Positions 37,915 to 40,690 of a DNA stretch of 64,000 bases are shown in pieces. The stretch is from Clostridiales bacterium (GTDB lineage: Bacteria; Bacillota; Clostridia; Christensenellales; Borkfalkiaceae). The position numbers and the translations under genes are program-made. Below the pieces are notes generated by a model, which worked only from the letters and a program-made list of their open reading frames with translations, ran no database searches and had not been told where the DNA came from. Positions within the stretch are counted from its first letter, which is position 1. The number at the start of each line of letters is the position of its first letter. The stretch covers positions 1-64,000 of the forward strand of contig SVIF01000002.1 in assembly GCA_015069615.1 (NCBI GenBank), read 5' to 3'.

Positions 37915-38754
37915 TTACGCTTTGTTTTCGCAGCCGAAAATCTTCATTTTCTTAATTGCCGCTTGTTTGATTGCTTCTACCTTTCTATCGCGGATGGCAA
38001 GGTAAGATAGACCCCCTTCCTTAATTGCCGCTTCGGTTGCTTCAATACCCGCAACGCAAAGGTCGGTGTAAATGTTTACCTTGCTAATGCCGTATTTTAC
38101 AACGTTTTGGAAGTCTTCATCCGTAAGGCCAGAACCACCGTGAAGAACCAGGGGAGTATCCATAGCCGCGTGGATTTCGCTTAAACGCTTAAAGTCAAGC
38201 TTGGGCTTGCTCTTATAAGCGCCATGCGCGGTACCGATGGAAATTGCAAGCGCGTCTACGCCTGTTGCTTGTTGGTAAGCAACCGCTTCTTCCACCTTGG
38301 TGTAAAGGTCTGCCGCGTTGTTATCCTCTTGGTCTGCTTGACCAACGTGGCCAATTTCACCTTCAACGGTAGCGCCAAAGCTGTGCGCGATTTTTACGAT
38401 TTCACGGGTGTTAGCCAAGTTTTCTTCGTAGGGGTGAACGGAACCGTCGTACATAATGCTGGAAAAACCGAGTTGCAACGCTTCCATGCAGCGGTCAAAG
38501 GTCAAACCGTGGTCAAAGTGAACAACAACGGGAACGGTAGCGCGTTTTGCAGCCGCAATCAAAGCGGGGGCAATCAGTTTTAATTCACCGCTGGGCAATA
38601 AAACTTCCGCCGTACCGATAATTACGGGTGCGCGCAGTTCTTCAGCGGCGGAAATTACCGCTTCTAACATATCCGTATCCGTGGTGTTGAAAAGGCCAAC
38701 GCCGTAGCCGTTCTTTTGCGCGTCTTTTAATACGTAATCTAAATTAACTAACAT
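37915..38754 (-). CDS. Class II ketose-bisphosphate aldolase (Fba/KbaY/GatY family)
   Basis: Zinc aldolase cleaving a ketose (bis)phosphate to dihydroxyacetone phosphate plus an aldehyde. VVHFDHGLTFD holds the zinc His and catalytic Asp; EGEIGHVGQADQ, SIGTAHGAYKSKPKLDFKRL and LHGGSGLTDEDFQ supply zinc and phosphate ligands; NIYTDL is the C-terminal phosphate loop. 279 residues, the size of GatY/KbaY/Bacillus FbaA. Sequence alone does not separate fructose from tagatose substrates. Last gene of a three-gene unit with an isomerase and a PfkB-type kinase. Confidence 0.92.
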   Translation of the reverse strand: MLVNLDYVLKDAQKNGYGVGLFNTTDTDMLEAVISAAEELRAPVIIGTAEVLLPSGELKLIAPALIAAAKRATVPVVVHFDHGLTFDRCMEALQLGFSSIMYDGSVHPYEENLANTREIVKIAHSFGATVEGEIGHVGQADQEDNNAADLYTKVEEAVAYQQATGVDALAISIGTAHGAYKSKPKLDFKRLSEIHAAMDTPLVLHGGSGLTDEDFQNVVKYGISKVNIYTDLCVAGIEATEAAIKEGGLSYLAIRDRKVEAIKQAAIKKMKIFGCENKA

Positions 38755-38781: not shown

Positions 38782-39330
38782 TTACATATCTTCTTCAATT
38801 ACGGGCAAACGAGAAATGCGCTTATCCGTAAATTCATCCGTTTCGTCCGTGCTACGGGTGGAAAATTCGCTAATTACCGCGCCGTCTTCCCCTGCAACGA
38901 ACCAGTGCCAAGTTTCGGGCATAATGGTGAATTGCTGACCGGGAAGTAAAATGGTTTCGTCAAAAACCGAAACGTCCGTAGCGGGTAGGGGAATGGAAAT
39001 ATCTTCCTTGGTTTTCGCGCGGTTGGTATCCGTGTAAAGGTAAACTTTACCGTAACGGCAACGGAAGGTTTCTTCCTTACCTTCTTTACCGCCCGTGGGA
39101 ACGTGCTTATGTTCGGGGCAGCATTGACCGGGGAACAGTACCATTTCCTTTGCGCATACGCGTTCGGTATTGATGTAAGTTACAAGTTCCAAACCTACTT
39201 GGTCTACGATATTTAAGCCAAGGTCGGCAACTTCAATGTTCGCCTTTTCTTCATCGGTTAAAACGATACCCGCTTTCGCGTAGTATTCTAATGCTTTTTG
39301 TTGGCATCTAACAACGTCACTTCTTTTCAT
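38782..39330 (-). CDS. D-lyxose ketol-isomerase-like cupin
   Basis: Single-domain cupin of 182 residues related to D-lyxose/D-mannose isomerases (Bacillus YdaE type, about 167). Metal ligands are visible: the His pair in EHKHVPT, Glu in KEETFRCRYG, and His in ETWHWFVAG. The enzyme interconverts D-lyxose with D-xylulose and often D-mannose with D-fructose. AAGGAG site; 12 bases after the HTH-PfkB gene and 27 before the aldolase gene, so the three steps isomerise, phosphorylate, cleave are encoded together. Confidence 0.88.
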   Translation of the reverse strand: MKRSDVVRCQQKALEYYAKAGIVLTDEEKANIEVADLGLNIVDQVGLELVTYINTERVCAKEMVLFPGQCCPEHKHVPTGGKEGKEETFRCRYGKVYLYTDTNRAKTKEDISIPLPATDVSVFDETILLPGQQFTIMPETWHWFVAGEDGAVISEFSTRSTDETDEFTDKRISRLPVIEEDM

Positions 39331-39342
39331 TGCTGTTTCTCC

Positions 39343-40563
39343 TTAATAATTGATATTTTTGCGCCCGAATTTTTTCATAAGGGCGTATACGCTTTCTTTA
39401 TCTTTCATGCTACTGATGGAATCTTTCGCCGCCAAGTTCATTGCCGCGCAAGCGGAAGCAAATTCCAACATTTCTTTATCGCTCATACCTTTGTAAATTC
39501 CGTATAAGCAGCCCGCGCAGTACGCGTCGCCCGCGCCCACCGAACCTTTAATGTAATCTTTAGGTAAATCTAGGGAAGGAACCACGGTAAACGTGCCGTC
39601 CGCCGCGTAGCAGAATCCCGCTTCGGGCGCGTGAACGATCAAGCGTTCGCCAACCCCTTCCTTCATCATAATTTCCATGGTCTTGCGCACGTTTTCTACC
39701 ACAAGGTTGCCGTTTTCGTCGCGTGGGGGAATGCCCGAAACTTCGCTGGCTTCCACTTCGTTCATAAACGCGTTATCCGTATATTTCAACGCGGGAAGAA
39801 CGGTTGCGCTAAATTTTCCCGTGGTGTTGCTAACTACGTCAAAGGAGGTACGAATCCCCGCTTCTTGCACGCGCTTTAACAAACGCGCAAGCGCGGTGCC
39901 GTATTCTTCGTCCGGCTCGTCAAACTGTCTCATCAACAAAAGATAGCCGATATGGAACATTTCACAGTTTAACGCTTCCACGTCAACATCTTGGGGGCAG
40001 AACTCACCGTTTGCGCCTTCGTGCGAAAAGAAGGTTCTTTCGCCCGTGGATTCTATCGTCATTACGTCGCAAAAACTGGTGCAAGCCTTTTGGTCGGTAA
40101 TTACCTTGCTTACGTCCACACCGTATTTTTGCATTTCTGAAAGGATAAATCTACCGCTTTCGTCATTACCAACCCTACCGATTACGTCAACTTTTAGTTT
40201 TTTGTCTAATTTGGCAAGGTCAATCCCCGTGTTGGGTACGCATCCGCCCACCGCTTGGGAAAGGGAATCGATAATGCCCATCATTCCCTTTTCGGGGTAT
40301 ACGTTTACGATTTTCACCGTATCTTTAATAATGTTACCCGCAATGGTAATACCCGTGCGTTCGCCGGCTAACAGCCCGTCCACCGTGGTGCCAAGCGTTT
40401 TTGCAAGCACTTGCAGTTGGGTAATGTCCGGATATCCAACGCCGCGTTCCCACTTGCTTACCGCTTTATCGCTTACGAACAGTTCTTCCGCAAGGTCGCT
40501 TTGGGTAAGACCGCGCAGTTTTCTAAGTCTAGCAATGGTTGTGCCGATTTTCAGTTCTCCCAT
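39343..40563 (-). CDS. HTH(XRE)-PfkB fusion: sugar kinase with DNA-binding domain
   Basis: Residues 3-65 form a Cro/C1-type helix-turn-helix (GTTIARLRKLRGLTQSDLAEELFVSDKAVSKWERG). A short linker leads to a complete PfkB/ribokinase domain (about 80-400), with the N-terminal VNVYPEKG...GGCVPNTGIDLAKL substrate region, GRVGNDESGRFI and the catalytic GAGD (343-346) in GSVGAGDAYCAG. Start is ATG 40563 behind AAGGAG; a longer frame to 40620 would run over the promoter. 406 residues. Likely a sugar kinase whose sugar binding also controls transcription of its own operon; the inverted repeats at 40593-40650 fit its autoregulation. Confidence 0.88.
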   Translation of the reverse strand: MGELKIGTTIARLRKLRGLTQSDLAEELFVSDKAVSKWERGVGYPDITQLQVLAKTLGTTVDGLLAGERTGITIAGNIIKDTVKIVNVYPEKGMMGIIDSLSQAVGGCVPNTGIDLAKLDKKLKVDVIGRVGNDESGRFILSEMQKYGVDVSKVITDQKACTSFCDVMTIESTGERTFFSHEGANGEFCPQDVDVEALNCEMFHIGYLLLMRQFDEPDEEYGTALARLLKRVQEAGIRTSFDVVSNTTGKFSATVLPALKYTDNAFMNEVEASEVSGIPPRDENGNLVVENVRKTMEIMMKEGVGERLIVHAPEAGFCYAADGTFTVVPSLDLPKDYIKGSVGAGDAYCAGCLYGIYKGMSDKEMLEFASACAAMNLAAKDSISSMKDKESVYALMKKFGRKNINY

Positions 40564-40591
40564 AAGAAATCTCCTTTTCGGTTCTGCAACC

Positions 40592-40620
40592 ATTATAAAC
40601 CAAATTTTTCCACTCGTCAA
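40592..40620 (-). promoter_or_regulatory. Promoter of the HTH-PfkB operon
   Basis: On the minus strand TTGACG (40620-40615), 17 bases, TATAAT (40597-40592), 29 bases before the start. Confidence 0.85.
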
Positions 40621-40650
40621 CCCACTAATCGTTCATTTTTTGGTTTATAA
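40593..40650. promoter_or_regulatory. Paired inverted-repeat operator candidate
   Basis: TTATAAACCAAA (40593-40604) and its exact reverse complement TTTGGTTTATAA (40639-40650), 12 bp each with 34 bases between. The first arm covers the -10 box, the second lies upstream of the -35. Suits a repressor binding both arms or a pair of half-sites. Confidence 0.6.
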
Positions 40651-40690
40651 AAAAGGCAAAACAGTAAACGGATAGTAGAGTTTTTGAAAA

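Follow-up and report, generated by a model that had tools for sequence, protein, structure and literature searches.

A Cro/C1-type helix-turn-helix joined to a PfkB-family kinase: a candidate self-regulating sugar kinase of Clostridia

Enzymes that also act as regulators

Trigger enzymes combine metabolic and regulatory roles and are represented in E. coli by PutA, NadR, BirA, and PepA (PMC8249747). PutA, a proline utilization enzyme, represses its own operon when its substrate is absent, and NadR is both an enzyme and a repressor (PMC8249747). In archaea, the riboflavin kinase/regulator RbkR carries a helix-turn-helix (HTH) on a working small-molecule kinase, while the enzyme-only orthologue MJ0056 has no HTH (PMC8305020).

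The window, i.e., the whole 64,000-nucleotide stretch analyzed here (positions 1 to 64,000 of contig SVIF01000002.1 from a Clostridiales bacterium), encodes an XRE (Cro/C1-type) HTH joined to a PfkB kinase, which resembles several of these systems in part. NadR likewise places an N-terminal HTH_3 and metabolic enzyme domains on one protein of about 410 amino acids, as a control scan confirmed; however, its enzymes are an NMN adenylyltransferase and an AAA_28-type kinase rather than PfkB, and it regulates multiple targets. RbkR is a close parallel in that an HTH-kinase fusion exists alongside an enzyme-only orthologue, but it is an archaeal CTP-dependent cradle-loop kinase of riboflavin metabolism. 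PutA matches the proposed role, a catabolic enzyme repressing its own operon, with unrelated folds. E. coli YeiI (b2160, 362 amino acids) also has an N-terminal HTH and a PfkB kinase, yet the former is a winged HTH_24 and the gene lies outside any isomerase-aldolase operon. The premise of an initial annotation of this DNA, that sugar-responsive regulators are usually dead kinases, is therefore too strong, given that NadR and RbkR are enzyme and regulator at once and YeiI combines HTH with PfkB. The literature searched, with small coverage of subscription journals, contained no description of an XRE-PfkB fusion. The pairing appears to be new and would work like the trigger enzymes NadR, RbkR, and PutA, whose mode is already known.

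The fusion protein

The gene and its domains are as follows.

39343..40563, minus strand: XRE-PfkB fusion gene, 406 amino acids, first gene of the operon (open reading frame, Pfam, AlphaFold)
40372..40536, minus strand: XRE/Cro-C1 HTH, residues 10-64, recognition region SDKAVSKWE (HTH_3, conservation)
39370..40350, minus strand: PfkB/ribokinase-fold kinase domain, residues 72-398 (Pfam, nearest solved sequence, AlphaFold, solved folds)
39526..39537, minus strand: GAGD, catalytic anion hole and base, residues 343-346 (invariant columns over 43 relatives)

The gene is a single unbroken frame starting at an ATG at 40563 with an AGGAG ribosome site ahead of it, and both frame and Pfam bear out the gene coordinates and domain limits proposed initially. 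Residues 10-64 match PF01381 HTH_3 end to end (E = 1.2e-12), as expected of an XRE (Cro/C1) HTH, and residues 97-387 match PF00294 PfkB (E = 1.1e-31). No ROK match was found in Pfam or NCBIfam, and Pfam placed neither a winged HTH_24 of the YeiI HTH_24-PfkB type at the N-terminus nor the NMN adenylyltransferase and RN kinase domains, which it did find in the NadR control, anywhere in the protein. The AlphaFold model (pLDDT 95) contains a helical HTH immediately followed by a ribokinase fold. The nearest solved folds to the kinase are ribokinases, and by sequence the nearest solved protein is YdjH of E. coli (3h49), whose chain aligns with the kinase part only. The PfkB/ribokinase assignment draws on profile, fold, GAGD, and GG..N, and DNA-binding domain and enzyme share one polypeptide, as in trigger enzymes.

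Besides GAGD, residues G76, D81, G106-G107, N111, N268, and E269 are invariant in columns over 43 relatives, and the kinase motifs show no variation across the family, whether fused or unfused. Retention of the catalytic motif, pointed out in the initial annotation, extends to all fused relatives that reach the region (the contig of locus L138 ends ahead of GAGD, so that its motif lies beyond the available sequence). Judged by these residues, the kinase domain is very likely catalytically active.

Fused and unfused relatives

The same in-frame fusion occurs at 21 other loci, with 45-58% identity, in many Clostridia families, and hence the fusion is not an assembly artifact; these loci likewise rule out a pseudogene, frameshift, or assembly join. 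The distance from the WE motif of the HTH to the first kinase strand is 32 residues in 20 of the 22 fusions, and this constant spacing together with the conserved HTH rules out chance read-through. Unfused relatives are also common, with identity up to about 55%, and every other strong match in 398 genomes sampled from the wider phylum is unfused. Apparent XRE-PfkB matches from Treponema and elsewhere (L022, L034, and similar) are XRE genes with a short, different C-terminus and not kinases. The comparison sequences are contigs of metagenome-assembled genomes, and start codons were picked by hand from the HTH alignment.

In a tree of the kinase domain only, obtained by a quick search, all fusions fall within one 29-row group (SH-aLRT 88) that includes unfused members. 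The tree is best read as one fusion gain followed by at least five HTH losses, with weak support at nodes close to the fusion origin; multiple fusion gains are a possible alternative reading. Within one genus, three states coexist: L138 (genome G345) has an intact HTH, L139 (G276) has an HTH that is frame-broken from the kinase, and L135 (G219) has none. The operator described below is kept in L139 and decayed in L135, where GTGACTTTAC is the remnant of the proximal site. HTH loss is seemingly in progress in this genus.

The operon and its likely substrate

Two genes follow the fusion on the same strand.

38782..39330, minus strand: D-lyxose/D-mannose-family cupin isomerase, 12 bp downstream of the fusion (PF07385; solved relatives 2y0o and 7nzo)
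37915..38754, minus strand: class II ketose(-bis)phosphate aldolase, 27 bp past the isomerase (domain matches, solved relatives)

Relatives keep the order kinase-isomerase-aldolase or kinase-aldolase, with gaps of -4 to about 25 bp at most loci. Another class II aldolase is encoded at a different place in the window genome, and the operon aldolase therefore looks dedicated. The operon shares its logic of a kinase with a class II aldolase with E. coli YdjH/YdjI, and YdjI (6ofu) is the second-nearest solved aldolase; the YdjH/YdjI sugar differs from that of the window system. In the nearest sister, L206 (57-58% identical), a fucose-isomerase-family protein replaces the cupin isomerase. Occasional extra neighbors among the relatives include GH38 and GH2 glycosidases, a GH32 fructan hydrolase, and a mannitol-1-phosphate 5-dehydrogenase. 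Together, operon and neighbors point to a ketose kinase whose substrate is perhaps fructose derived from mannose. A sulfoquinovose pathway, considered because this fucose-isomerase-family neighbor of L206 matches SftI, is not supported; the match is weak, scoring 72 bits where the cut-off is 700.

A two-site operator at the promoter

The promoter of the window operon contains the following elements.

40592..40597, minus strand: -10 hexamer TATAAT
40615..40620, minus strand: -35 hexamer TTGACG (17-bp spacer to the -10)
40616..40625, minus strand: proximal operator GTGGGTTGAC, family consensus GTAGGTTTAC, overlapping the -35 (family motif comparison)
40664..40680, minus strand: distal operator CTCTACTATCCGTTTAC, consensus CTCTACN5GTAGAG, right half degenerate (family motif comparison)

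Each of the 23 loci with an HTH (the window fusion, the 21 others, and the frame-broken L139) has the proximal motif GTAGGTTTAC or a close variant, with 7-10 of 10 positions matching, and the last five bases of the motif make up most of the -35 box. The distal palindrome occurs in almost all of the 23 with 8-12 of 12 positions and is perfect in eight. Information content is mostly 1-2 bits in core columns of the operator and mostly 0.1-0.6 in the flanks. The two sites lie 44-47 bp apart in 14 loci and 54-57 bp apart in nine, with none at 48-53 bp, and the distances are phased (Rayleigh p of about 7e-7 at 10.5 bp). Two spacings one helical turn apart fit proteins on both sites that touch each other. 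Some copies of the distal palindrome could fold as hairpins; a terminator of the upstream gene was nevertheless rejected as an explanation because the sequence is conserved, phased to the -35, and missing where the HTH is missing.

In the window, the center of the distal operator is 47 bp upstream of the proximal site, which fits the family position and phase. Both sites are weaker than the family average (palindrome 9 of 12, shuffle p 0.04; proximal site 8 of 10, p 0.07), and the TTGAC variant of the proximal site is common to the window and its nearest sister. The fragment 40580-40660, initially suggested for gel shifts, covers the proximal site but ends short of the distal palindrome.

At 17 unfused relatives, the corresponding position has neither the proximal motif nor the palindrome; among them are about five lineages in which the HTH seems to have been lost. 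In five phylogenetically independent pairs, absence of the HTH coincides with absence of the operator without a contrary case (p = 0.0625, the limit for five pairs). Because both motifs were originally recognized by eye in the fused loci, the contrast between fused and unfused loci is partly built in; independent checks come from a composite search of 391 genomes and a survey of 77 other XRE genes.

The HTH as probable reader of the site

The strict two-site pattern has six matches in the 391 genomes, five of them at promoters of fused kinases. The sixth (L247, genome G044, C22:3002-3073) lies ahead of an unrelated 484-residue XRE fusion with the same HTH type, SDKAVSKWE. L247 also has a third palindrome-like sequence, CTCTACAAATCGTAGG, between its two operator sites.

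A merged site, CTCTACN5GTAGRTTKAC, is found upstream of 43 of 77 other XRE genes with window-like HTHs and differing C-termini (at least 12 of 16 positions, at most 150 bp upstream of the gene), against background counts of 18 in 1540 stretches taken at random from these loci and 15 in 1540 shuffles. Since L247 and these 43 genes share the HTH and not the kinase, the DNA site goes with the HTH; the merged site further suggests that XRE proteins of this type regularly occupy the -35 of their own genes. The 77 genes (L016-L088; e.g., L066, L055, L041, and L082) have a DKAVSKWE helix, many with an FYVCPxCGN metal-ribbon-like tail. Their XRE type appears to be a portable HTH module that regulates its own gene through a fixed operator.

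A search of 19 genomes found eight perfect copies of the palindrome, of which seven lie at the promoter of the fused gene itself. Other palindrome matches in the fused genomes have no proximal partner, and many fall inside open frames. A wider regulon is disfavored by this missing partner, and a single-target regulator is favored. Comparative genomics thus provides what is expected of a trigger enzyme, a specific operator at the regulated operon, and binding of the fusion to its own promoter is well supported. The initial proposal that the HTH reads the promoter of its own operon agrees with this comparison, in which the operator is tied to the HTH.

Proposed mode of regulation

The operator is present with the HTH and absent without it across about 40 relatives, so that one protein probably both processes the sugar and controls its own operon. 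The preferred reading, held with somewhat better than even confidence, is an autoregulator of the trigger-enzyme type in which the XRE domain represses its own operon and an active PfkB ketose kinase serves as the sugar sensor. The N-terminal domain would occupy two sites at its own promoter, the proximal one over the -35 and the palindrome four or five helical turns upstream. Occupancy of the -35 would repress transcription of kinase, isomerase, and aldolase, and contact with the distal site, through cooperative or looped binding, would strengthen this repression. The C-terminal domain would act as a ketose kinase supplying the aldolase; binding of ketose and ATP would change its conformation and, via the fixed-length linker, release the DNA.

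The most serious competitor, unlikely but deserving real weight, is a plain homeostatic autorepressor: the HTH would limit the operon by concentration alone, and the kinase would work independently without relaying sugar occupancy. Because the same HTH, when attached to unrelated C-termini, also has a site at the -35 of its own gene, a kinase is not required for autoregulation, and repeated loss of the HTH has been tolerated; the occurrence of HTH-less kinases in many lineages likewise counts against the preferred reading. However, the spacing between HTH and kinase is rigid, and the kinase fusions have the phased two-site operator rather than the merged site, which suggests a more elaborate switch.

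Activation, with the fusion at the -35 and upstream recruiting RNA polymerase when sugar is present, is improbable. Many -35 boxes in the family are off-consensus (TTTACN), and some XRE proteins, such as lambda cI, activate from near -40. Here, however, the motif falls directly on the -35 hexamer, and a near-consensus, TATAAT-like -10 with a 17-bp spacer is found in 22 of the 23 HTH-bearing loci, which fits the occlusion of a working promoter.

ROK repressors offer a precedent for a kinase-dead sensor that merely binds sugar, a role very hard to reconcile with the invariant GAGD, GG..N, and N-E residues, with the position of the fusion as sole kinase of an isomerase-kinase-aldolase operon, and with the enzyme-only relatives L136 and L215 in the same operon type. 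Although the correlation of HTH and motif could in principle be indirect, a different regulator on these motifs, with the HTH directed at other targets, is just as implausible, for the motif tracks the HTH, is missing without it, and precedes genes that share only the HTH, while other palindromes in the fused genomes have no proximal partner.

The broader evolutionary account has about an even chance of being right: a transferable XRE head that brings a fixed operator (CTCTACN5GTAG at the -35 of its own gene) would have been fused to unrelated proteins in gut Clostridia. By joining a PfkB ketose kinase, this head would have given rise to an enzyme-repressor that senses sugar and uses a helically phased two-site operator, and that has since disappeared several times along with the operator. 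If the reading of the locus holds, PfkB-fold sugar kinases would join the few enzymes known to control the genes that encode them, a concrete operator would come with them, and the gains and losses in the family would form a natural series for studying the evolution of enzyme-regulator coupling. The XRE module would then seem to take its operator along as it moves between proteins. For anaerobes, the fusion would be attractive as a compact sugar switch because no separate sensor protein would be needed.

Additional features of the window and its genome

One further element surrounds the proximal site.

40593..40650, no strand assigned: perfect 12-bp inverted repeat TTATAAACCAAA/TTTGGTTTATAA flanking the proximal operator (0 of 500 shuffles)

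Its arms (40650-40639 and 40604-40593) surround the proximal site and cover the -10, and they contain GGTTTA, as does the proximal motif; the repeat was not seen in the closest relative, L206. Elsewhere in the window genome (G000, C20:488-1645; L090, L004), a second PfkB gene is followed by a separate, unfused XRE gene on the same strand.
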